From Methanoculleus oceani (lineage in GTDB: Archaea > Halobacteriota > Methanomicrobia > Methanomicrobiales > Methanoculleaceae), in the NCBI RefSeq assembly GCF_023702065.1, contig NZ_QFDM01000002.1:744001-808000 (forward strand): a stretch of 64,000 bases of DNA, in the 5' to 3' direction. This document shows positions 2,664-14,458 of this stretch, in pieces. How positions within the stretch are numbered: the stretch's first letter is position 1; every line of letters starts with the position of its first letter. The notes under the pieces were generated by a model. That model saw only the letters and a program-made list of their open reading frames with translations, ran no database searches and was not told the DNA's origin. The position numbers were made by a program, and so were the translations under genes.

Positions 2664-3752
2664 ATGGCGATCATCGAGGCACACAACATCAAAAAATCCT
2701 ACGGCAGCCTTGAAGTTCTGCACGACGTCGACCTCTCGGTCGGGGAAGGCGAGATCCTCGCGCTCATCGGCCCGAGCGGGTCGGGGAAGAGCACGCTTCT
2801 CCGGATCCTCGACCTTATCGAGCCCGCGAACGAGGGGGAACTCTCGGTCTTCGGTATCGACACGGTGGAGGAGCACGGCCGCTGGCTCGACCTCCGCCGC
2901 CGGATGGGGATGCTCTTTCAGCGGCCGATCGTCTTCAACTCGTCCGTCTACGACAACGTCGCGATGGGGCTGCGTTACCGCCATGCCTCCGGCAGCGAGA
3001 TCGATCGAAAGGTGAAGGAAGCCCTCGAGGCCGTCGGGCTCTCTCGTTACGTCAAGAGCAAGGCGCTCGATCTCTCCGGCGGCGAACAGCAGCGGGTGGC
3101 GTTATCAAGGGTGCTCGTGACCGACCCCGAGATCCTCTTCCTGGACGAACCGACGGCGAACCTGGACCCGACATCGACCGCCACCATCGAGGCGATCGTG
3201 ACACGGCTGAATCGCGAGGCCAACATGACCGTCGTGATCAGCACCCACGACCTCATGCAGGGGCAGCGTCTCGCCCACCGGGTCGGGGTGATGATCGAGG
3301 GCACGATCGCCCAGACGGGACTGTCCCGCGAGATATTCCACGAGCCCAAAGACAGGAGGATCGCCCGGTTCGTGGGCGTCCAGAACATCGCCCCCGGTCG
3401 GGTCGTCGCGCAAAGAGAGGGACTCACCGTGGTGGAAGTGAGGGGGAAACAGATCCTCTCGGCGACCCCGCCGCCCGCCGACGAAGTCGAGATGATAGTC
3501 CGGGGCGAAGACATCTCCCTGCACCGGAGGGAACCGGCGCACGAGGAGGCGGAGAACCTCTTCCCCGCCACGGTTACCGGCATCGAGCCCACGGCGCCGT
3601 TCGTGAACGTGACGGTGCACTGCGGGTGCGATCTTGTCGCACTGGTGACCGCAAGAAGGGCGGAGACCCTCGGACTTCACGAGGGTCTGGAGGTCTGGGT
3701 CTCCCTCCAGGCGAAGGCGGTCCACCTGATCCCCCGAAATGGACCCGGATGA
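2664..3752 (+). CDS. tupC: Tungstate ABC transporter ATP-binding protein with TOBE domain (TupC-like, copy 1)
   Basis: The cytoplasmic ATPase of the importer, 362 residues. The N-terminal nucleotide-binding domain has Walker A GPSGSGKST, signature LSGGEQQR, Walker B ILFLDEP and the H-loop STHDL. The last third looks like a Mop/TOBE oxyanion-binding region (INIVRGEDISLHRR-like and QAKAVHLIP segments). Such domains bind molybdate or tungstate and can inhibit transport when the cell is replete. The start ATG has GGTGA just upstream within the end of tupB. It is last in the operon. Confidence 0.88.
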   Translation: MAIIEAHNIKKSYGSLEVLHDVDLSVGEGEILALIGPSGSGKSTLLRILDLIEPANEGELSVFGIDTVEEHGRWLDLRRRMGMLFQRPIVFNSSVYDNVAMGLRYRHASGSEIDRKVKEALEAVGLSRYVKSKALDLSGGEQQRVALSRVLVTDPEILFLDEPTANLDPTSTATIEAIVTRLNREANMTVVISTHDLMQGQRLAHRVGVMIEGTIAQTGLSREIFHEPKDRRIARFVGVQNIAPGRVVAQREGLTVVEVRGKQILSATPPPADEVEMIVRGEDISLHRREPAHEEAENLFPATVTGIEPTAPFVNVTVHCGCDLVALVTARRAETLGLHEGLEVWVSLQAKAVHLIPRNGPG

Positions 3753-3809
3753 AGCCCCGAATCCATATTACGCGGAAATTCTGAGGCTGCTGCCCCGCCC
3801 GGGAACGCC

Positions 3810-3833
3810 GAGTAAACCGATTTTGTTTAACTC
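3810..3833. promoter_or_regulatory. Imperfect dyad upstream of wtpA
   Basis: GAGTAAACC at 3810-3818 faces GTTTAACTC at 3825-3833, an inverted repeat with one extra base in the right arm and a perfect TAAAC/GTTTA core. It lies 50-73 nt before the wtpA ATG, upstream of the TATA-like ATACTTTTA at 3846-3854. The same nine bases GAGTAAACC occur upstream of the second tupA at 11631-11639. It could be a metal-responsive operator; that is inference. Confidence 0.35.
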
Positions 3834-3882
3834 TTGCCGGAACGAATACTTTTAACAATCGAGCATTCTCAAAAGTTATTTT

Positions 3883-4974
3883 ATGAAATTAACCCGCCTA
3901 TCTGCTTTTATCTATCTCATCGTCGCTGCCGCGGTCCTGATCTGCGGCTGCACGGGGACGACGAACACCGATTCGGTGCCCGGTGCAGGCAACCAGACGA
4001 CGACCCCCACACCGACGGCAGCTGCTGCCGAAGACGTTCAGGTAAAGGTTTTCCACGCCGGGAGCCTGACCGGGCCGTTCGAGAAGGTGAAAGCGGAATT
4101 CGAAACTGAACATCCCGGTGTCACCGTGCTCCTCGAGCCCGCCGGCAGCGTCGACTGCATCAAGAAGGTGACCGAGAACGGCAAACCCGCCGATGTCGTC
4201 GCCTCCGCCGACTACGCGCTCATCCCGGATATGATGATTCCTGAGGACGCCGACTGGTATCTCACGTTCGCGAAGAACCGGATGGTGCTCACCTACTCGA
4301 ACGAGAGCATGTACGCGGACGAGATCACCGCCGAGAACTGGTACGAGATCCTCGACCGCGACGGCGTCCGGTGGGGCTTCTCCGACCCGAACTCCGACCC
4401 CTGCGGCTACCGCAGCCCGATGGTGATCCAGCTCGCCGAGGCCTACTATGAGGACGACCAGATCTTTGAGACCCTCGTCGGGGAGCACAGCGAGATCACC
4501 GTCACCGAAGAGGGCGGGGTCTACACGATCCACGCCGCCGACCCGAAGCCCGACAGCATCACCCTGACGATCCGGCCTAAGAGTGTCGAACTCGTCCAGA
4601 TGATCCAGGCCGGCGGACTTGACTACGCCTGGGAGTACCGGAGCGTTGCCGTGCAGAACGATCTTCGCTTCCTCGAACTCCCCGAGGAAATCGACCTCTC
4701 GTCGATAGACTTTGCGGAGAACTACGCGACCGTCCGGACCGAGGCGAAGAAGGGCGACGGCACGACGGTCTACGCAGGCTCGCCGATCGTCTACGGCGTG
4801 ACCGTCCCGAAGATCGCAGAGCACCCCGACCTCGGTCTCGAGTTCGTGGAGATGCTGATCGGCGCCACCGGGCAGGAGATCCTCGCCGCCGACGGCCAGC
4901 CCCCGATCGTGCCTGCAGGCGGCTACGGCGACGTCCCGACCGCTCTCCAGTCGCTCGTCGAGATGAAAGCCTGA
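3883..4974 (+). CDS. wtpA: Molybdate/tungstate ABC transporter substrate-binding lipoprotein (WtpA)
   Basis: A 363-residue secreted lipoprotein with a signal peptide whose lipobox Cys is residue 23, then a Thr/Ala-rich linker. The mature domain starts VKVFHAGSLTGPFEKVK and contains PAGSVDCIKKVTE, SADYALIPDMM, WGFSDPNSDPCGYRS and EYRSVAVQ. This is the WtpA/archaeal ModA pattern, distinct from the two TupA proteins here. Family members bind molybdate and tungstate with six-coordinate geometry. The start ATG follows a TATA-like box by about 30 nt with no Shine-Dalgarno site, suggesting a leaderless transcript. It begins the wtpABC operon. Confidence 0.92.
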   Translation: MKLTRLSAFIYLIVAAAVLICGCTGTTNTDSVPGAGNQTTTPTPTAAAAEDVQVKVFHAGSLTGPFEKVKAEFETEHPGVTVLLEPAGSVDCIKKVTENGKPADVVASADYALIPDMMIPEDADWYLTFAKNRMVLTYSNESMYADEITAENWYEILDRDGVRWGFSDPNSDPCGYRSPMVIQLAEAYYEDDQIFETLVGEHSEITVTEEGGVYTIHAADPKPDSITLTIRPKSVELVQMIQAGGLDYAWEYRSVAVQNDLRFLELPEEIDLSSIDFAENYATVRTEAKKGDGTTVYAGSPIVYGVTVPKIAEHPDLGLEFVEMLIGATGQEILAADGQPPIVPAGGYGDVPTALQSLVEMKA

Positions 4975-5044
4975 ACCCCTCCCCTTCTTTTATGCCACCA
5001 ATTATCAGCGGACGCGTACAACGTTTAGTTGGGAACGTGCGGAT

Positions 5045-5926
5045 ATGAAGACTCAAACGGTGTCGGGCGACATCCTTCAGGGTGAAGGTGAGGTATCTCT
5101 CCCCTGGTGGAGGCAGCGCAGGAGGCAGCAGGTAGACTGGTGCACCGTCTGGTTCTGCATCATGGGAGCGGCACTCGTCGGTATCACGGTGCTCGCGCTC
5201 GCGAACATCGCAACGACGGAACTTGCCGACCCGGCTCACCTTCTCAAGGTCGCGGCGTCGTCGGAGGTGATCGGATCGATCTTCCTCACGTTCGGTGCGG
5301 GGGCGAGCGCCGTCCTCCTCCTCATCCTCTTCGGGACCCCGCTCGCCTACGTCCTCGCGCGGTCCCGCCCATCCCGCTTCAAGGGGGTCGTCGAGAGCCT
5401 CGTCGACATCCCGCTCATCCTGCCGCACACCGTGGCGGGCCTGCTCGTCTACCTCCTCTTCATGCGCCGGGGATGGCTCGGCGCGCCGCTCTCGGACGTC
5501 GGGCTCGCCTTCGAGGACGCACTCCCGGGGACGGTGGTCGCGATGCTCTTCGTCGCCTCGCCGTTCTTCGTCAACACCATGCGGGAGGGGTTCGAGAAGG
5601 TGCCCGTCCATCTGGAGAACGTCGCCCGCACGCTCGGTGCCGGCACGTTCACCACCTTCTGGACGGTCACGCTCCCCTTGAGCCTCCGGCACATGTACAG
5701 CGGGGCCGTCCTCGCATGGGGAAGAGCGATCGGGGAGTTTGCCGGTGTCATCATGATCGCCTACTACCCGTTCATCATATCGACGCTGATCTACTACTCC
5801 TTCACGACGGACGGCATTCACACGAGCAGGAGCATTGCTTTTACGGTTATTCTGGTCAGTTTCGGGGTCTTCTACCTGCTCCGGCGGATGACCCGGTACC
5901 TGGGGAGGTACGATGATCGCGTTTGA
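5045..5926 (+). CDS. wtpB: Molybdate/tungstate ABC transporter permease (WtpB)
   Basis: A 293-residue permease with five to six transmembrane segments. After a polar N-terminal extension of about 38 residues (rich in Gln, Arg and Trp) come DIPLILPHTVAGLLVYLLF and the EAA coupling loop around ENVARTLGAGTFTTFWTVTLP, then WGRAIGEFAGVIMIAYYP. The extension is longer than in a minimal ModB/WtpB, so an internal start is possible, but no better start with a ribosome site is evident. The 3' end overlaps wtpC by 14 nt, implying translational coupling. Confidence 0.9.
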   Translation: MKTQTVSGDILQGEGEVSLPWWRQRRRQQVDWCTVWFCIMGAALVGITVLALANIATTELADPAHLLKVAASSEVIGSIFLTFGAGASAVLLLILFGTPLAYVLARSRPSRFKGVVESLVDIPLILPHTVAGLLVYLLFMRRGWLGAPLSDVGLAFEDALPGTVVAMLFVASPFFVNTMREGFEKVPVHLENVARTLGAGTFTTFWTVTLPLSLRHMYSGAVLAWGRAIGEFAGVIMIAYYPFIISTLIYYSFTTDGIHTSRSIAFTVILVSFGVFYLLRRMTRYLGRYDDRV

Positions 5927-6980
5927 CCGCGTCTCGCTCGCACTCGGCTCGTTCTCCTTGAACGACGTCAGTCTCTCGATCAACCGGGGCGACTACTACT
6001 TCATCGTCGGGCCGTCGGGGGCAGGGAAGACAGTGCTCCTGGAGGCGATCGCCGGCCTTCACCGGCCGGACCGGGGGCACATACTCCTCCGGGGCACCGA
6101 GATCACCACCCTGCCCCCGGAGAAGCGGAGGGTTGGCCTCGTCTACCAGGACTACTCGCTCTTCCCGAACATGACGGTCGCGGGCAACGTCTCCTACGGC
6201 CTCCGGGTCCGGCGGATGCACAAGGGTGAGGCCAGGAGCGAGGTTGCCGGCCTCCTCGAACGGTTCGGGATCGATCATCTTGCGGACCGCTACCCGGGCA
6301 CCCTCTCCGGCGGCGAGCAGCAGCGGGTAGCGCTCGCGAGAGCCGTCGCGGTGAAACCGGATATCCTCCTCCTCGACGAACCGCTCTCGGCCCTCGACCC
6401 CGTCACGCAGGAGAAGTTCATCGCCGACCTCAAGCAGCTTCACCGGGAGGACGGGCTCACCATCGTGCAGGTGAGCCACTCGCGCCGGGAAGCGCACCTG
6501 CTCGCAACCCGGATGGCGGTGATCATCGACGGGACGCTCGTGGACGAAGGAGAGGCCGGGGTTGTGCTGAACACGCCGAAGAGTCGCGAGGTTGCAACGT
6601 TCATCGGGATCGAGAACATCCTGGACGGGATCGTGACGGCGAACGACGGCGGGCACGCGACGGTGGATGCCGGTGGGCGGACGTTCGAGGCGTTGACGGA
6701 CGCCGCCGTGGGCGAGGAGGTCAGCCTCTGCATCCGGGCCGACGACGTCGTCGTCGCCGTCGGCGACGGCCGCCGGTCGAGCGCCCGGAATACGATGGCC
6801 GGGACGGTCATCAATATCGCCGAGAACGGCCCCGTGGCCGAGGTGAAGGTTGACGGCGGCGTGGAACTGACCGCGGTCCTGACGCGGCGGTCTGTGCAGG
6901 AACTCGGCCTTGCCCCGGGGATTCCGGTGACCCTATCCGTCAAGGCGACGGCGATCCACGTCATCCGTTCTTTTTCTTGA
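5913..6980 (+). CDS. wtpC: Molybdate/tungstate ABC transporter ATP-binding protein with TOBE domain (WtpC)
   Basis: A 355-residue ATPase with Walker A GPSGAGKT, Q-loop VYQDYSLFPNMTV, signature LSGGEQQR, Walker B ILLLDEP and the switch histidine in QVSHSRREA. Roughly residues 235-355 form a TOBE/Mop-like regulatory tail (LCIRADDVVVAV, AENGPVAEVKV, SVKATAIHVI). The start ATG follows GGGGAGG by four bases inside the end of wtpB. Its stop overlaps the stop of the convergent SemiSWEET gene by 20 nt. Confidence 0.92.
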   Translation: MIAFDRVSLALGSFSLNDVSLSINRGDYYFIVGPSGAGKTVLLEAIAGLHRPDRGHILLRGTEITTLPPEKRRVGLVYQDYSLFPNMTVAGNVSYGLRVRRMHKGEARSEVAGLLERFGIDHLADRYPGTLSGGEQQRVALARAVAVKPDILLLDEPLSALDPVTQEKFIADLKQLHREDGLTIVQVSHSRREAHLLATRMAVIIDGTLVDEGEAGVVLNTPKSREVATFIGIENILDGIVTANDGGHATVDAGGRTFEALTDAAVGEEVSLCIRADDVVVAVGDGRRSSARNTMAGTVINIAENGPVAEVKVDGGVELTAVLTRRSVQELGLAPGIPVTLSVKATAIHVIRSFS

Positions 6981-7261: not shown

Positions 7262-8395
7262 TCAGGACCCGGGCTGCTGCCTTCCCGCCCACCACTGCAG
7301 GGCGTAGGCGAGGACCATCCCGACGATGAACGCGACCGTGAGCCCGACCACGAGGGTGAGGACGGCGATGACTCCCGTGACCAGGTACGACTCCGTCTTC
7401 GCGCTGTGCTTCCCGAGCTCGAGCGCCACGAAGACCAGGAGCGCACCGAAGACGCCGAAGGGAATGAGGGTCAGCACCTCCGGCGGGGCGAAGGCGACGG
7501 CGAATACGAGGATGAAGAGGCCGGCGACGATGTTCGCTCCGCCGGTCCTCGCGCCGAACCGGTACATCGCGGCAAGCCCTCCCGCGCCGTGGCACATGGG
7601 GAATCCCCCGAGCGGCGTCGAGATCAGGTTCATGGCGCCGATGGTCCGGGAGAGCCGGTCGGGGTCCACGCCCTTCTTCGGGAAGAGGTCGTAGGTGAGG
7701 AGCGATGTGGCGAGGATGGCGTTCGCGATGGTGAGCGGCACCTGCGGGAGGACGAGGTCCCAGGTGCCGGTGATGAAATCCGCCGGCGCGGGTATGATGA
7801 GGGCGGGAAGAGGCATCAGACGGAACGGCGGCATCCCCTGCACGGCGATGCCTGCGGCAAGCCCGATGAGAAGCACCAGCAGGGCGGAGACGTCCGGGAC
7901 CCGGGTGCGTTGCGATGCGATGAAGAAAGCAACGATGATCCCGATCGCGAGCACCGCAACGAGGAGATCGGTGAGGATGTAGCCGAGCGACGTCCTGAGG
8001 AGGAGGAGCGCAAGCCCCGCCTGGACACCCCGGATGACGCTTTTCGGGATCCGGTCCCCAAGCCAGGTCATGCCGCCGACGAGTCCGAGCAGGAGGAAGA
8101 GCGCACCGACGACGAGCCCCGATGCCACGATCTCGCCGGCACAGAGCCCTTCCGCGATGACGATGGCGCCGATCGCCTTCATCGGTTCGATGGGGACCGG
8201 GAGGCGGTAGTAGAGTCCGGTAATGATGAACCAGGCAGCGAGGAAGAGGAAGAAGTGGCTGACGTTCACGTCCGGGCAGACGATGGCGACACCGAGCAGT
8301 ATGGGGAAGATGGTGCCGAAGTCGCCGACGGCTCCGGCGACCTCCTCGAGGGTGATCCTGATGCCGCTCTCCTCCGTTCCGGTGCTCTCCTCCAT
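7262..8395 (-). CDS. MOT1-type molybdate (or sulfate) transporter
   Basis: A 377-residue polytopic membrane protein with about ten hydrophobic segments. Two family blocks are clear: GAVGDFGTIFPILLGVA near the N-terminus and YYRLPVPIEPMKAIGAIVIAEGL. A second pair, PLGGFPMCHGAGGLAAMYRFGARTG, falls in the C-terminal half. These are typical of the MOT1 molybdate permeases related to SulP sulfate transporters. Sitting between wtpABC and the storage-protein homologue, it would be a fourth oxyanion uptake route, ATP-independent. Substrate (molybdate, tungstate or sulfate) is inferred from the family and neighbours. Confidence 0.83.
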   Translation of the reverse strand: MEESTGTEESGIRITLEEVAGAVGDFGTIFPILLGVAIVCPDVNVSHFFLFLAAWFIITGLYYRLPVPIEPMKAIGAIVIAEGLCAGEIVASGLVVGALFLLLGLVGGMTWLGDRIPKSVIRGVQAGLALLLLRTSLGYILTDLLVAVLAIGIIVAFFIASQRTRVPDVSALLVLLIGLAAGIAVQGMPPFRLMPLPALIIPAPADFITGTWDLVLPQVPLTIANAILATSLLTYDLFPKKGVDPDRLSRTIGAMNLISTPLGGFPMCHGAGGLAAMYRFGARTGGANIVAGLFILVFAVAFAPPEVLTLIPFGVFGALLVFVALELGKHSAKTESYLVTGVIAVLTLVVGLTVAFIVGMVLAYALQWWAGRQQPGS

Positions 8396-9208: not shown

Positions 9209-9565
9209 TCAGGAAGGGGCCTGACCAACGCGGGCCTGCAACGCCCGGAGGACGCCCACACCCAGGACCTCCTCTGCGCGCTCGCCGTGCCGCTCCACCA
9301 TGACCGCGAGGAGCCGCTCTGTCCCCGCCGCCGTGGTGGAGATGCCGACCCGCTCCGTTCTGCGGATCAGCCCGTCACGCTCCATCTCCCCGAATCGGGG
9401 GAGGACGTAGTAATGCGGGATCCCGAGGTGCTCGGCGAGTTTCCGGGTCGTGGGGAACCGTATGGCGATGCCGCCCGGGTAAAAACCAATCGTTACGCAC
9501 CGGTCCTCTTCGAGGAGGATCCGGACTGCCGCATCGATGATATCATCATGTTCGTGCGTGGACAT
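9209..9565 (-). CDS. Winged-helix DNA-binding protein
   Basis: A 118-residue protein with a winged-helix-like region around residues 10-85. It has an IIDAAVRILLEED helix, FPTTRKLAEHLGIPHYYVLPRFGEMERDGL as the helix-turn-helix, and a wing RRTERVGISTT. The final 30 residues are a helix. I do not recognise a precise family and see no metal-binding TOBE domain. It lies in the middle of the molybdenum/tungsten genes, next to the gene for a 78-residue protein on the same strand and the divergent storage-protein homologue, so a local regulator is plausible but unproven. Confidence 0.68.
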   Translation of the reverse strand: MSTHEHDDIIDAAVRILLEEDRCVTIGFYPGGIAIRFPTTRKLAEHLGIPHYYVLPRFGEMERDGLIRRTERVGISTTAAGTERLLAVMVERHGERAEEVLGVGVLRALQARVGQAPS

Positions 9566-9614: not shown

Positions 9615-9851
9615 TTATGCCGCTTCTGCCTTCTTCATCTCGCCCCGCTCTTCCTCGGGCATCTCTTCGAGGTAGATGATCTCCGCCCCGATGTCCTTTG
9701 AAATCTGTTCGAGTTCGAGCTTCCTGAAGTGAGTTCCCTCCACCTTCAGGTGCTTTGATTCGCCCTGCTCTTCAACGACGGCGACGACTCGGAACCGGGG
9801 CTGCTTAACGCCGGTGCCGACTTTCTGGCGTTCTCGTGCATAGATCTTCAT
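9615..9851 (-). CDS. Conserved small hypothetical protein, 78 aa
   Basis: A 78-residue basic-then-acidic protein beginning MKIYARERQKVGTG and ending in a Glu/Lys-rich tail. The N-terminal half (KQPRFRVVAVVE then KHLKVEGTHFRKLELEQI) looks like a small beta-rich fold, and IGAEIIYLEEM follows. I do not recognise a function. The ATG follows GATGGG. It is transcribed divergently from the storage-protein homologue across a 94-bp spacer carrying a perfect palindrome, so both genes may share control. Confidence 0.7.
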   Translation of the reverse strand: MKIYARERQKVGTGVKQPRFRVVAVVEEQGESKHLKVEGTHFRKLELEQISKDIGAEIIYLEEMPEEERGEMKKAEAA

Positions 9852-9865
9852 GGTTTTCCCATCCC

Positions 9866-9879
9866 ATACCAATTGGTAT
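9866..9879. promoter_or_regulatory. Perfect 14-bp palindrome between divergent genes
   Basis: ATACCAATTGGTAT is a perfect palindrome, overlapped by a second one, GGTATACC (9875-9882). It sits 15-28 nt upstream of the 78-aa gene and 67-80 nt upstream of the storage-protein homologue. The placement suits an operator that could control both genes. The rightward gene has its own TATA-like ATACTTAA at 9903-9910. Confidence 0.45.
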
Positions 9880-9945
9880 ACCAGCAGGTAGTGGTCGCAA
9901 AGATACTTAATGTTTTCCTTCACACCAGAGTTAAGTGATGTTATC

Positions 9946-10752
9946 ATGGCAGAGCGATTTGAGATGGATTCGAGGTTCCGCGGCGAGAGCCTTGTCCGGC
10001 GGAGCCTGCTTCGCGAGACCAGAAGCGGCCGGCAGGTCAGGATCATGCCGGACTTAAACGTCGTCAAGATCGGCGGCCACGGGGTCATCGACTACGGGAA
10101 GGAGATCATCTACCCGCTGGTCGAAGAGATCGGAGAACTCTCCCGGAACAACAAGATCCTGGTCGCCACCGGCGGCGGCGTCCGGGTGCGTCACATCCTC
10201 GACGTCGGCATCGATCTGGGGATGCCGACGGGAGTGCTTGCGGAACTGGCGGGCAAGATCAGCGAGCAGAACGCGATCATGATGTCCATCCTCTTTTCGA
10301 AGTACAACGGTGTCCGGATCCACACCGCCGATCTCTTAAACCTCCCCTCGGTCATATCTCTCGGGATGCTCCCCGTCGTGCAGGGCACCCCGCCCTACGG
10401 ACTCTACGAGCACCCGCCGAAACTCGGGAGCATCCCGCCTCACCGGACCGATACCGGCGCCTTCCTGATGGCCGAGGTGGTAGGCGGGAAAAATTGCATC
10501 CTCGGGAAGAACGTGAACGGCCTCTACACAGAAAACCCGTTCGTGAACCCCGACGCCGAGTTCATCGCCGATATCACGGCTGAAGAACTCCTGGAGATGG
10601 AGATGGAGGATATGGTGCTTGAACCCAAGGCAGTCGAGCTGCTCCGGGATGCCGTCCACGTAAAGGAGATCAAGGTGGTGAACGCCCACGTCCCCGGGAA
10701 CATTGCAAAGGCTCTCAACGGGGAGCGGGTAGGCACCATCATCCGGGCCTGA
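9946..10752 (+). CDS. Molybdenum storage protein homologue (amino acid kinase fold)
   Basis: A 268-residue protein of the amino acid kinase superfamily, about the length of the MosA/MosB subunits of the bacterial molybdenum storage protein, which bind ATP and pack polyoxomolybdate or tungstate in a cage. Matches to that subfamily include VVKIGGHGVIDYG, ATGGGVRVRHI, LAGKISEQNA, GTPPYGLYE, IPPHRTDTGAFLMAE, and the C-terminal VPGNIAKALNGERVGTII. The start at 9946 is preferred over 9910 because GTGATG lies five bases upstream and the TATA-like box is 36 nt away. Its location within three oxyanion importers supports Mo/W storage; a plain kinase is the alternative. Confidence 0.82.
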   Translation: MAERFEMDSRFRGESLVRRSLLRETRSGRQVRIMPDLNVVKIGGHGVIDYGKEIIYPLVEEIGELSRNNKILVATGGGVRVRHILDVGIDLGMPTGVLAELAGKISEQNAIMMSILFSKYNGVRIHTADLLNLPSVISLGMLPVVQGTPPYGLYEHPPKLGSIPPHRTDTGAFLMAEVVGGKNCILGKNVNGLYTENPFVNPDAEFIADITAEELLEMEMEDMVLEPKAVELLRDAVHVKEIKVVNAHVPGNIAKALNGERVGTIIRA

Positions 10753-10839: not shown

Positions 10840-11538
10840 ATGACCCTCTACCTTGGCATCGACGACACCGACACCCGCGAGTCCCGGGGAACCGGACGGC
10901 TCGCCCGCATGATTGCAGCAGAACTCGCCCGGTCGTACACGGTGACGGGGGTGACCCGTCACCAGCTCTTTGTCCATCCCGCCGTCCCCTACACCTCCCA
11001 CAACAGCTCCGCGGTCATCCACATCCAGGATACCGGGAACGGGATCGCGGCCGGGGTGTTCGCGGCGGCAAAGGAACTGATGCTCAACGACTTCATCGAG
11101 GGGAGCGACCCCGGCATCTGCGTCGCCGCCGACCGGGAGATCGGAAACGACCTCTCCCGCTTCGGCTTCTCGGCAAAGACGAGCATCGTGACGCAGGAAC
11201 AGGCACGCACACTCGCCCGGGAGGCGGGAGTCCTCCTCGAAGGCCTCGGCGGCACCGAGGACGGCGTGATCGGTGCGCTTGCCGGCATAGGGCTTGCGGC
11301 ATCGGGCAACGACGGCCGGTTCGTCCAAAAGGGAACGACCCGGGACCTCCGCGGCAACCAGACGGTCGCTGCAATCCTCGCCTCCGGCGTCGACCGGGTA
11401 GAGACCCGGGACGGGGCGGTGGTCGGCGAGGGCGTAGTCGCGCTCCGGAAGTTCCCGAAGCCCGCCCGTGTCGGGGGGAAGGCAGTCCTCTTTGTCGAGG
11501 CCGACGGCGACGCGTACCACGATCTCGTGATCGGGTGA
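10840..11538 (+). CDS. Short TiaS-like protein (N-terminal domains only)
   Basis: A 232-residue protein that begins LYLGIDDTDTRESRGTGRLARMIA, the signature of the kinase-like domain of archaeal TiaS, which makes agmatidine at tRNA-Ile2 position 34. Next come TRHQLFVHPAVPYTSHNSSA and GTEDGVIGALAGIGLAASGNDGRF, also TiaS-like. Full TiaS is about 420 residues with OB-fold and zinc-ribbon RNA-binding domains; both are absent here. It is therefore more likely a paralogue with another substrate than the tRNA enzyme. It stands alone between the storage-protein homologue and the second tup operon. Confidence 0.75.
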   Translation: MTLYLGIDDTDTRESRGTGRLARMIAAELARSYTVTGVTRHQLFVHPAVPYTSHNSSAVIHIQDTGNGIAAGVFAAAKELMLNDFIEGSDPGICVAADREIGNDLSRFGFSAKTSIVTQEQARTLAREAGVLLEGLGGTEDGVIGALAGIGLAASGNDGRFVQKGTTRDLRGNQTVAAILASGVDRVETRDGAVVGEGVVALRKFPKPARVGGKAVLFVEADGDAYHDLVIG

Positions 11539-11639: not shown

Positions 11640-11682
11640 AATAGCATTTAAATGTAAGTATTCCGATACCTGATTGATAATT

Positions 11683-12609
11683 ATGCAAAGAAGAACCGTT
11701 TTTGCCGTTGCGGCCGTCATGGTCGCCCTCCTGTTCATCTGCGGCTGTACCGGGACGACAACCGACCCGACCCCCGTAGAGAAGCAGCAGCTCCGTATCG
11801 CGACGACGACGAGCCTTTACGACACCAAACTCCTCGATCACCTCACACCGATCTTCGAGGAGCAGTACAACGCCGAGGTGCTGATCGTCTCCGCCGGGAC
11901 CGGTAAGGCGATCGAATACGGACAGAACGGAGACGTGGACGTCCTGATGGTGCACGACCGTGCGCGTGAAGACGCCTTCCTCGCCGACGGCTACGGTACC
12001 GACCGGCGCGTGTTCGCCTACAACTACTTCGTCCTCATCGGACCCGAGTCCGACCCGGCAGGCATCAAGGGCATGCAGCCTGAAGCGGCGTTCACCACCA
12101 TCCGGGAGACTGGAATGGCCGACGGATCGGATGTCGTCTTTGTCTCGCGCGGCGATGCCTCAGGCACGCACTCCAAGGAGAAGGCCATCTGGAAGGGAGC
12201 CGGATTCAACTACTCCGCGGACGTGCAGGGCTCCGGCGACTGGTACCAGGAGGCCGGGACGGGCATGGGTGCAACCCTGACGATGGCGAACGAGAAGCAG
12301 GCCTACACCCTCTCCGACATCGGGACCTACCTCGCCTACAAGGGCGACCTCGAGCTCGTGACGCTCGTGGACGAGGGCGACATCCTGCTCAACGTCTACT
12401 GCGCCATGCAGATCAACCCCGAGAAGTACCCCGACACCAACACCACCGTCGCGAAAGACTGGATCAACTTCATGATCTCCGACGATGTTCAGGAGGAGAT
12501 CGCCTCCTTCGGTGTCGACCAGTACGGCCAGCCACTCTTCTACGCCGCCCAGAACGACTGGGAGAAGATCGGCGTAACAGAGGCTGAAGTGAAGGACCCG
12601 GTCCTCTGA
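11683..12609 (+). CDS. tupA: Tungstate ABC transporter substrate-binding lipoprotein (TupA-like, copy 2)
   Basis: A 308-residue lipoprotein paralogous to the protein at 914. The signal peptide ends at lipobox Cys22, then LRIATTTSLYDTKLLDHL, GTGKAIEYGQNGDVDVLMVHD, VFVSRGDASGTHSKE and NEKQAYTLSDIGTYLAY follow. The start ATG at 11683 is chosen over the in-frame TTG at 11674 because it gives a compact positively charged signal peptide. It lacks the longer Gly/Ala linker of copy 1. It leads an operon with the same order and gene sizes as copy 1, so an operon duplication is likely, although the copies have diverged considerably. Confidence 0.88.
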   Translation: MQRRTVFAVAAVMVALLFICGCTGTTTDPTPVEKQQLRIATTTSLYDTKLLDHLTPIFEEQYNAEVLIVSAGTGKAIEYGQNGDVDVLMVHDRAREDAFLADGYGTDRRVFAYNYFVLIGPESDPAGIKGMQPEAAFTTIRETGMADGSDVVFVSRGDASGTHSKEKAIWKGAGFNYSADVQGSGDWYQEAGTGMGATLTMANEKQAYTLSDIGTYLAYKGDLELVTLVDEGDILLNVYCAMQINPEKYPDTNTTVAKDWINFMISDDVQEEIASFGVDQYGQPLFYAAQNDWEKIGVTEAEVKDPVL

Positions 12610-12666: not shown

Positions 12667-13368
12667 ATGTACGAGATCATTGAGGGATTCATAGAGGCGA
12701 TCCGGCTCATCGTCACGCTCGACCCCGACGTGATGGCCATCGCCGCGAGAAGCATCATCGTCTCTCTCACCGCGACGATCTTTGCCACCCTGATCGCCAT
12801 CCCGCTCGGCGCCGCGATCAACTTCGGCACGTTCCCCGGAAGGAAGAGTCTCATCAACCTGATCCAGACGCTCTACTCCCTGCCGACGGTCATTGTCGGG
12901 CTCCTCATATTCCTGCTCATATCCCGCGTCGGACCGTTCGGATCCCTGCGGCTGCTCTTCACTCCGACCGCCATGGTCATCGCGCAGACGGTCCTCATCC
13001 TGCCGATCATGACCGGCCTCACTATCTCCGCGCTCTCGGGGATCGACCCGGTCGTCAGGGATACCCTCTACTCGCTCGGGGCGACCCGCCTCCAGTTCCT
13101 CGTAAACATCATGAAAGAGGCCCGATTTGCAATCCTCGCGGCCGTCGCGGTCGGGTTCGGGCGGGCGATATCCGAGGTCGGGGCGGCCATCCTCGTCGGC
13201 GGCAACATCATGGCGTCGTCGTTTGCGAGTTCGACCCGGGTCCTGACGACCGCGATATCGCTTGAGACCTCGATGGGGAACATTCCCCAGTCCATCGCAC
13301 TCGGACTGGTCCTCCTCGCCATCGCCCTCGGCGTGAATCTCGCCATAACCACGGTACAGCACCGGTGA
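12667..13368 (+). CDS. tupB: Tungstate ABC transporter permease (TupB-like, copy 2)
   Basis: A 233-residue permease collinear with the one at 1964: IIEGFIEAIRLIVTLDPDV at the N-terminus, PTVIVGLLIFLLISRVGPFG, and the coupling loop SLGATRLQFLVNIMKEARF followed by GFGRAISEVGAAILVGGN. The ATG follows AGGTG by five bases. It lies 57 nt after tupA and 4 nt before tupC. Residue-level similarity to copy 1 is high through the whole length. Confidence 0.88.
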   Translation: MYEIIEGFIEAIRLIVTLDPDVMAIAARSIIVSLTATIFATLIAIPLGAAINFGTFPGRKSLINLIQTLYSLPTVIVGLLIFLLISRVGPFGSLRLLFTPTAMVIAQTVLILPIMTGLTISALSGIDPVVRDTLYSLGATRLQFLVNIMKEARFAILAAVAVGFGRAISEVGAAILVGGNIMASSFASSTRVLTTAISLETSMGNIPQSIALGLVLLAIALGVNLAITTVQHR

Positions 13369-13372
13369 CCCC

Positions 13373-14458
13373 ATGATTGAACTTGCAGACGTCTCAAAGC
13401 AATTCGATGATAAGACGGTGCTCGACGGCGTCACCGCGCGCATCGGGCGGGGAGAGATCTTCGCCGTCATCGGGCCGAGCGGATCCGGGAAGTCGACCCT
13501 GCTGCGCCTCATCGACCTCCTCGATACCCCGACGGGAGGAGCGATCCGCATCGACGGTGTCGACATCCACGCCGGAAAGGAGCAGAGCCTCCGAACCCGC
13601 CGGATGATGGGGATGGTCTTCCAGAAGCCTGCCGCCTTCAACTCGACGGTCACAGAGAATGTCGCCATCGGGCTCCGGTTCCGGGGAGCGAGCGAGAGTG
13701 TGATCCGCAAGAAGACCAGGGACGCCCTCGCTCTGGTCGGCCTTGCCGGCTATGAGGATCGGCGGGCCCGGACGCTCTCGGGCGGGGAGATGCAGCGGGT
13801 GGCTCTTGCCCGGGCGATGGTGATCGAGCCGGAGATCCTCTTAATGGACGAGCCGACCGCGAATCTCGATCCGGTCTCGGTGGAGAAGATCGAGGAGCTG
13901 GTCCTCCGGATCAACCGCGACCTCGGCACGACTATCCTTTTTTCGACCCACGACATGTACCAGGGGCAGCGGCTCGCCCACCGGATCGGCGTGCTGATGA
14001 AGGGCGTGTTCGCGCAGGTGGGGTCCCCGAGAGATATTTTCACCGTACCGGCGAGCAGCGAGGTTGCCCGGTTCGTCGGCACCGAGAACGTCGTCGAAGG
14101 GGTAGTCGAGGCCGACGGGAACGACTTCTCCGTCGTCGACGTCGGCGGCGTCCGGGTCAGAACAAAATTCTCGTTTGGCAGGGGAGAGAACGTCTGCCTC
14201 TGCATCCGGTCGGAGGATATACGGATCGCCCCGGCGGGTGGTGGGAAGGCCACTCCCGGCAAGAACGCCCTCCCCGGCATCGTGGCCTCCGTCTCCCCGC
14301 GCGGCCCGTTCAGCAGGGTGACGGTCGACTGCGGGTTTGCGCTCTCGTCAGTCCTCTCCTGGAAGGCGGTGGACGACCTGGACCTGCGGGAAGGCAGCCG
14401 GGTTACCGCCTCGTTTACGGCGGAGTCGGTCCACGTCGTCAGGGCGACGCGGAACTGA
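13373..14458 (+). CDS. tupC: Tungstate ABC transporter ATP-binding protein with TOBE domain (TupC-like, copy 2)
   Basis: A 361-residue ATPase paralogous to the one at 2664, with Walker A GPSGSGKST, signature LSGGEMQR (Glu-Met in place of Glu-Gln), Walker B ILLMDEP and H-loop STHDM. The C-terminal third carries TOBE-like segments (LCIRSEDIRIAP, RGPFSRVTVDCGF, FTAESVHVV). The ATG has GGTGA upstream inside the tupB end. It is the last gene of the island; 191 bp without a gene follow. Confidence 0.88.
   Translation: MIELADVSKQFDDKTVLDGVTARIGRGEIFAVIGPSGSGKSTLLRLIDLLDTPTGGAIRIDGVDIHAGKEQSLRTRRMMGMVFQKPAAFNSTVTENVAIGLRFRGASESVIRKKTRDALALVGLAGYEDRRARTLSGGEMQRVALARAMVIEPEILLMDEPTANLDPVSVEKIEELVLRINRDLGTTILFSTHDMYQGQRLAHRIGVLMKGVFAQVGSPRDIFTVPASSEVARFVGTENVVEGVVEADGNDFSVVDVGGVRVRTKFSFGRGENVCLCIRSEDIRIAPAGGGKATPGKNALPGIVASVSPRGPFSRVTVDCGFALSSVLSWKAVDDLDLREGSRVTASFTAESVHVVRATRN

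Follow-up and report, generated by a model that had tools for sequence, protein, structure and literature searches.

Two divergent genes lie at the locus, one encoding a 268-amino-acid (aa) protein (positions 9946 to 10752, forward strand) and the other a 78-aa protein that we name SM (9615 to 9851, reverse strand). Between them, at 9866 to 9879, is a perfect 14-bp palindrome, ATACCAATTGGTAT, 14 bp before the SM gene and 66 bp before the other gene. All positions refer to the window, the whole 64-kb stretch of DNA that was analyzed. An earlier note on this DNA had described the two genes and the palindrome, and the open reading frames (ORFs) and the palindrome were indeed located there. In the ORF list, the 268-aa gene starts at the ATG at 9946 and its stop codon ends at 10752; a 280-aa version starting at 9910 was rejected, as homologs begin near 9946. 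The SM gene runs from a start at 9851 to a stop at 9615, and its homologs share its MKIY start or are slightly longer there. The extra part of a longer, 157-aa reading of this gene is not conserved. Directly behind SM is a gene for a 118-aa winged-helix-like putative regulator (9209 to 9565, reverse strand), for which only weak helix-turn-helix or winged-helix matches below the cutoffs were obtained.

The pair is flanked by genes for molybdate and tungstate import. Upstream are a WtpABC-type system and a MOT1-type molybdate transporter (7262 to 8395, reverse strand; Pfam MFS_MOT1, 172 bits, over the cutoff). The former comprises the tungstate/molybdate-binding protein WtpA (3883 to 4974, forward; NCBIfam PRK04168, 414 bits, cutoff of 355), a WtpB-like permease (5045 to 5926, forward; NCBIfam WtpB, 234 bits, below the cutoff of 340), and a WtpC-like ABC ATPase (5913 to 6980, forward) assigned by position from the ORF list and the tblastn neighborhood. 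Downstream is a TupABC-type system with a TupA-like tungstate-binding protein (11674 to 12609, forward; NCBIfam TupA, 193 bits, below the cutoff of 400), a TupB-like permease (12667 to 13368, forward; NCBIfam ABC_perm1, 237 bits, over the cutoff, and TupB, 162 bits, below the cutoff of 320), and a TupC/WtpC-like ABC ATPase with a TOBE domain (13373 to 14458, forward; Pfam and NCBIfam, with a good TupC-like score below the cutoff). The placement among Mo/W importers proposed earlier therefore holds, with WtpA and the MOT1-type protein over their NCBIfam and Pfam cutoffs and the WtpB-, TupA-, TupB-, and TupC-like proteins below those of their named families.

We counted the neighbors of related genes by tblastn in 122 loci (L069 to L190), some of them from the same genomes. 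Relatives of SM were found in 112 loci, of the winged-helix protein in 94, of TupC in 77, of MOT1 in 75, of TupB in 74, and of TupA in 67; no winged-helix relative was found by tblastn in the bacterial loci among them. Four Asgard assemblies (Borrarchaeum L134, L159, and L190 and Sifarchaeum L160) have the SM-winged-helix unit, a homolog of the 268-aa gene, and tup genes. A 232-aa protein resembling TiaS and methanogenesis marker 11 (10840 to 11538; scores below the cutoffs) has relatives near the 268-aa homolog in 40 of the 122 loci, and such a gene adjoins bacterial copies too (L187, L251, and L253). In L111 and other loci of the genus, extra WtpB/WtpC-like genes (about 3500 to 5270; 33 to 43% identity), which the window does not have, lie between TrmO and the winged-helix gene.

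The closest named relatives are Methanoculleus genomes (92% identity). A phmmer search of the PDB with the 268-aa protein gave as best match MosB of Azotobacter (2ogx_B; E value of 1.1e-61 over residues 13 to 268), a subunit of the molybdenum storage protein (MoSto) in which nitrogen-fixing bacteria stockpile molybdenum or tungsten, with MosA matching at about 1e-45 and UMP kinases at 1e-9 or weaker. A MoSto-like profile scores 458 bits on the protein and 42 bits on the UMP kinase of the same genome, and phylogenetic analysis, which the earlier note had proposed for separating MoSto from UMP kinases, groups the protein with MosA and MosB. The very long UMP kinase branch (8.8) leaves the root of this tree uncertain. 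That the protein is instead a divergent UMP kinase or another enzyme of the amino acid kinase type is scarcely credible: it has the amino acid kinase fold (Pfam AA_kinase, 85 bits) and nucleotide-site residues in common with PyrH, and weak PyrH and aspartate kinase scores, but it lies far under the UMP kinase cutoffs (59 bits on the NCBIfam archaeal model, cutoff of 158), it clusters with MosA and MosB, and the genome already has a true pyrH elsewhere (L004; 269 bits against the same cutoff). Membership in the MoSto (MosA/MosB) kin, as the earlier note had proposed, is thus near certain from the sequence comparisons. The genome (G000) has one MoSto-type gene and not the tandem alpha and beta arrangement of MosAB.

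The alignment with Azotobacter vinelandii MosA and MosB (PDB 2OGX) covers residues 13 to 268 of 268, and the invariant MoSto residues are kept. The MosB-type site residues K41, G43, G44, R80, R82, H83, Q108, N109, and D169 are all present; of these, R80, R82, H83, Q108, N109, and D169 recur in 97% or more of 65 MoSto-like rows. The 268-aa protein also has R80, H83, P94, G96, Q108, and G171, which are common to MosA and MosB and differ from the organism's own UMP kinase. At position 188, in the KNVNG segment, it has a MosB-like lysine; this residue is K in Azospirillum MosB and the archaea and E in Azospirillum MosA. Glu129, His140, and His156 of MosA, which by this numbering we take to be the alpha-type metal ligands and whose letters match 2ogx_A, were not found in the 268-aa protein, which has H, V, and G at those columns. 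The position of Met-beta-149, said by Bruenle in 2019 to act as a gate, is Thr in the 268-aa protein, in all 31 other archaeal rows, and in 9 of 9 Geobacter-type rows. The residue roles followed here were reportedly worked out by Kowalewski in 2012 and Bruenle in 2019, as was the closing of the beta ATP site by the N-terminal arm of the alpha subunit. All 55 single-gene rows have R4 and E14 of this arm, residues that vary among the 10 paired rows. In a passage of a review, octamolybdate is described as bound to a His and a Glu.

The earlier note had named a lack of the residues lining the Mo-binding pockets as a finding that would refute its reading. The MosA ligands are indeed absent, but since MosB and most Desulfobacterota pairs lack them too, their absence does not decide on storage, and we dropped MosA-type ligands as a storage test. 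The description of the system as bacterial-style MosAB has to be given up: the Azotobacter protein is encoded by two genes, while here a single MosB-like gene encodes a protein that lacks MosA residues 129, 140, and 156 and carries Thr at the gate. Unlike the Azotobacter system, it nearly always has SM as a neighbor, and it is found in methanogens and other anaerobes, with no need for nitrogenase.

By its co-occurrence and its alignments, the 78-aa ORF is a real protein, a member of a conserved partner family without a Pfam, NCBIfam, or PDB match. Pfam and NCBIfam scans with 13 SM members and E values up to 10 gave only isolated weak single-member matches, none of them to a TOBE domain, and nothing significant came from PDB sequence searches with SM and the SM profile. 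Tub of Eubacterium limosum and other TOBE/Mop proteins are likewise small proteins in Mo/W storage, according to a passage of PMC11980592; SM differs from them in having no TOBE match in Pfam or NCBIfam. K2, R6, R8, K10, H41, R43, and K44 of SM are kept in 40 archaeal members, and most of the conserved basic residues are kept in bacterial members too. A first structure model of SM had a pLDDT of 69. A model from a deeper alignment, made for the compact relative L247 and not for the window's SM, reached a pLDDT of 80.8 and a pTM of 0.65, with a predicted strand-strand-helix-strand-helix fold. Fold searches with this model, to be read with its middling confidence, gave a best Foldseek E value of 0.13 and a best VIA Z score of 3.7 (root mean square deviation of 4.8 over 57 residues). 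A complex I S4-type subunit, ribosomal protein S16, and YciH were rejected as SM folds, as they appeared in weak rows only. Because the model has no significant fold match and middling confidence, contact between SM and MoSto is argued from genomics.

We investigated the distribution of the two genes. Across 199 genomes of the order, MoSto was found in 132 and SM in 133, with both in 131, MoSto only in 1, SM only in 2, and neither in 65. The one MoSto without a recognizable SM is in G170 (L236); a long open frame holds MoSto there, and a fusion to SM was looked for but not seen in it. The two genomes with SM only are G056 and G153, the SM gene of the latter lying at a contig end. Among 392 genomes of the phylum, MoSto was found in 67 and SM in 70, and all 67 MoSto-positive genomes have SM; the three others (G217, G226, and G240) carry an SM paralog or its remains. 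In the Asgard phylum of one locus, 4 of 158 genomes have SM.

A contig-wide scan gave 473 related stretches, of which 80 were kept, mostly from methanogens and also from Asgard archaea, Geobacter argillaceus, other Desulfuromonadales-type bacteria, and Anaeromyxobacter. SM is present in 76 of the 80; two of the others end at a contig edge near MoSto, one has SM beyond the flank, and one (L145) has a deleted remnant of it. Several of the entries are metagenome assemblies, so that single cases may be misbinned; Geobacter argillaceus is represented by a named strain. The genes are usually divergent in archaea and adjacent in varied orientations in bacteria. The MoSto-like gene is therefore not peculiar to one methanogen, and the small gene is, by these counts, a genuine partner. 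The co-occurrence is strong evidence from comparative genomics for co-function of SM with single MoSto. In one methanogen genus (L085 to L090), there are two tandem SM-MoSto pairs, each copy with its own SM. Variants were also seen: one MoSto gene has two adjacent SM genes in L076, L078, and L205, and in L250 (4022 to 4342) an intact SM lies beside a broken MoSto, which is partial and has an in-frame TGA. In f7/g39 genomes, an SM paralog without MoSto nearby lies behind an aspartate-semialdehyde dehydrogenase gene (L256, 4637 to 4846; L257, 5423 to 5635); the SM match in L258 is poor.

The tie to single MoSto genes is sharpest in Desulfobacterota, where 16 of 247 genomes have SM and 18 have MoSto. 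All 15 single-MoSto genomes have SM about 60 to 200 bp away, upstream or downstream and co-directional, or convergent, while SM is found in none of the three genomes with two MoSto genes (G526, G571, and G600), the only such genomes in the set. No SM was found at the Azospirillum mosAB loci. A maximum-likelihood analysis of 66 proteins unites MosA and MosB with the three Desulfobacterota pairs in one clade (support of 96/97) that excludes every single MoSto gene; several of the paired rows are long-branched, and the tree program warns that such branches may join falsely. In three of three Desulfobacterota genomes (L240, L265, and L266), moaA and moaC are immediately preceded by a divergent SM relative, with MoSto not adjoining. 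The first of these, G682 (L240, 1720 to 1968), has only this relative, before moaA, moaC, and a MOSC-domain gene; the other two are further genomes of its class.

The palindrome was scanned for as TACCA-N2-TGGTA with up to 2 mismatches. Such sites were found in 92 of 100 distinct divergent spacers, where about 8 would be expected. All 30 spacers of the genus have one, against about 2 expected, as do 58 of the 66 from other archaea, against about 6, and all 4 from Asgard archaea. The 8 spacers without a site are those of L081 and L082 and the inner spacers of tandem copies. Because it is conserved across spacers, the palindrome stands above chance, and on this conservation it is a conserved, putative operator. 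Of 132 distinct sites in 1.32 Mb, the SM/MoSto promoter accounts for 92 and the region upstream of tupA or tupB for 18, with 18 more near no tested gene; of two scrambled palindromes used as controls, one had 6 of its 41 distinct sites at the SM/MoSto promoter and the other none of its 8. The 2.46-Mb genome contains the exact site a single time. A second, weaker site with 2 mismatches (9878 to 9891, forward strand) partly overlaps the first, and a second inverted repeat is seen in many spacers of the genus. The window contains no other site within 2 mismatches; shuffled sequence has a mean of 0.43 such sites and at least 2 in 7 of 100 shuffles. As there is no third such site at the other importers in the window, operator control of every importer was rejected.

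The site goes with the SM side of the spacer. At nondivergent loci, it stands before SM and not before MoSto (L069, L070, L079, L107, L157, L244, L248, and L249); at L073, L080, and L106, where the genes are no longer divergent neighbors, there is no site before SM. Among 91 spacers checked, all 73 with a winged-helix gene behind SM contain the operator, as do 10 in which no such gene was found (one at a contig end and 9 with room for it); the remaining 8 lack both. In the tandem pairs of L085 to L090, operator and winged-helix gene occur only with the outer pair. The earlier note had suggested that the small protein could be a partner or a regulator; the former role is borne out by the gene distribution, while that of regulator fits the winged-helix protein better.

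We propose, with a probability of about 0.6, that the locus serves as a module for storing molybdate or tungstate, namely, a one-subunit, MosB-like, ATP-driven store that needs SM as a partner. This proposal draws on what the sequences themselves show: MoSto kinship, the MosB-type residues, co-occurrence, adjacency, the absence of SM in the paired-gene genomes searched, and the conserved operator. The single MosB-like subunit would presumably form a homo-oligomeric cage, into which ATP would move molybdate or tungstate as clusters. SM would be an obligate partner, most likely a basic cap, a plug, or a cluster- or oxyanion-binding subunit, filling the role that falls to a second MoSto-type subunit in classical MoSto. 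The winged-helix protein may bind the palindrome and control the operon of SM and its own gene, as repressor or activator, and in some families may also control the tup tungstate importer. Counting against the proposal are MoSto genes without SM (G170, and L145 with a remnant only), SM relatives without MoSto (G217, G226, G240, and G682), the missing octamolybdate-holding MosA residues and the change of the gate Met to Thr, and the 9 spacers in which, despite an operator and room for it, no winged-helix gene was found behind SM.

SM could instead be an oxyanion chaperone, carrying its load to the store or from the store to cofactor synthesis with no stable binding to MoSto. We think this unlikely, though the moa-linked SM relatives in three of three genomes speak for it; the conserved basic residues and the SM paralogs that three f7 genomes carry away from any MoSto would suit such a carrier as well. 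An integral partner, however, would better explain why SM nearly always accompanies single MoSto and is absent beside paired MoSto. The MoSto-like protein might itself be an ATPase or sensor that responds to Mo/W, gates import, and stores nothing in bulk, as its lost MosA-type ligands, changed gate residue, and usual place among importers could suggest. This seems improbable to us, as the family-wide MoSto residues are kept and MosB and most Desulfobacterota pairs also lack the MosA ligands. It is likewise quite improbable that SM is a regulatory protein that acts at the palindrome together with the winged-helix protein and is tied to MoSto by shared regulation only. SM and the winged-helix gene do form one unit behind the operator, which stays with SM where the two divergent genes have parted, but bacterial loci have no winged-helix relative by tblastn and yet keep SM beside MoSto in varied orientations.

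Under the proposed storage module, the first step of methane formation offers a use for the metal. This step needs molybdenum or tungsten, and formylmethanofuran and formate dehydrogenases are Mo/W enzymes. Stored metal may serve these enzymes rather than nitrogenase. Nitrogenase was rejected as the reason for storage in this organism, as its genome has no nifD match at an E value of 1e-60; 21 of 130 genomes of the order are nifD positive (20 over the cutoff), and 9 of the 21 have MoSto, compared with 132 of 199 in the order. A passage of a 2019 paper (PMC6448029) describes MoSto as having no known homologs in protein databases, and the titles and abstract openings of the literature searched held no report of MoSto in archaea.

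One-gene MoSto with SM, found in methanogens and some anaerobic bacteria, points to a widespread putative metal storage module on the evidence of its genes. A tentative further reading, which we consider less likely than not, is that this form of polyoxometalate storage is older and more widespread than the Azotobacter alpha/beta cage, extending over methanogens, Asgard archaea, and anaerobic bacteria, and that the Azotobacter cage arose from it by gene duplication, the second subunit replacing an SM subunit of 70 to 80 residues that makes up part of the cage. If the storage module is real, stockpiling of molybdenum or tungsten would be a common trait of methanogens and not a specialty of nitrogen fixers, and an undescribed protein of 70 to 80 residues would belong to Mo/W storage.
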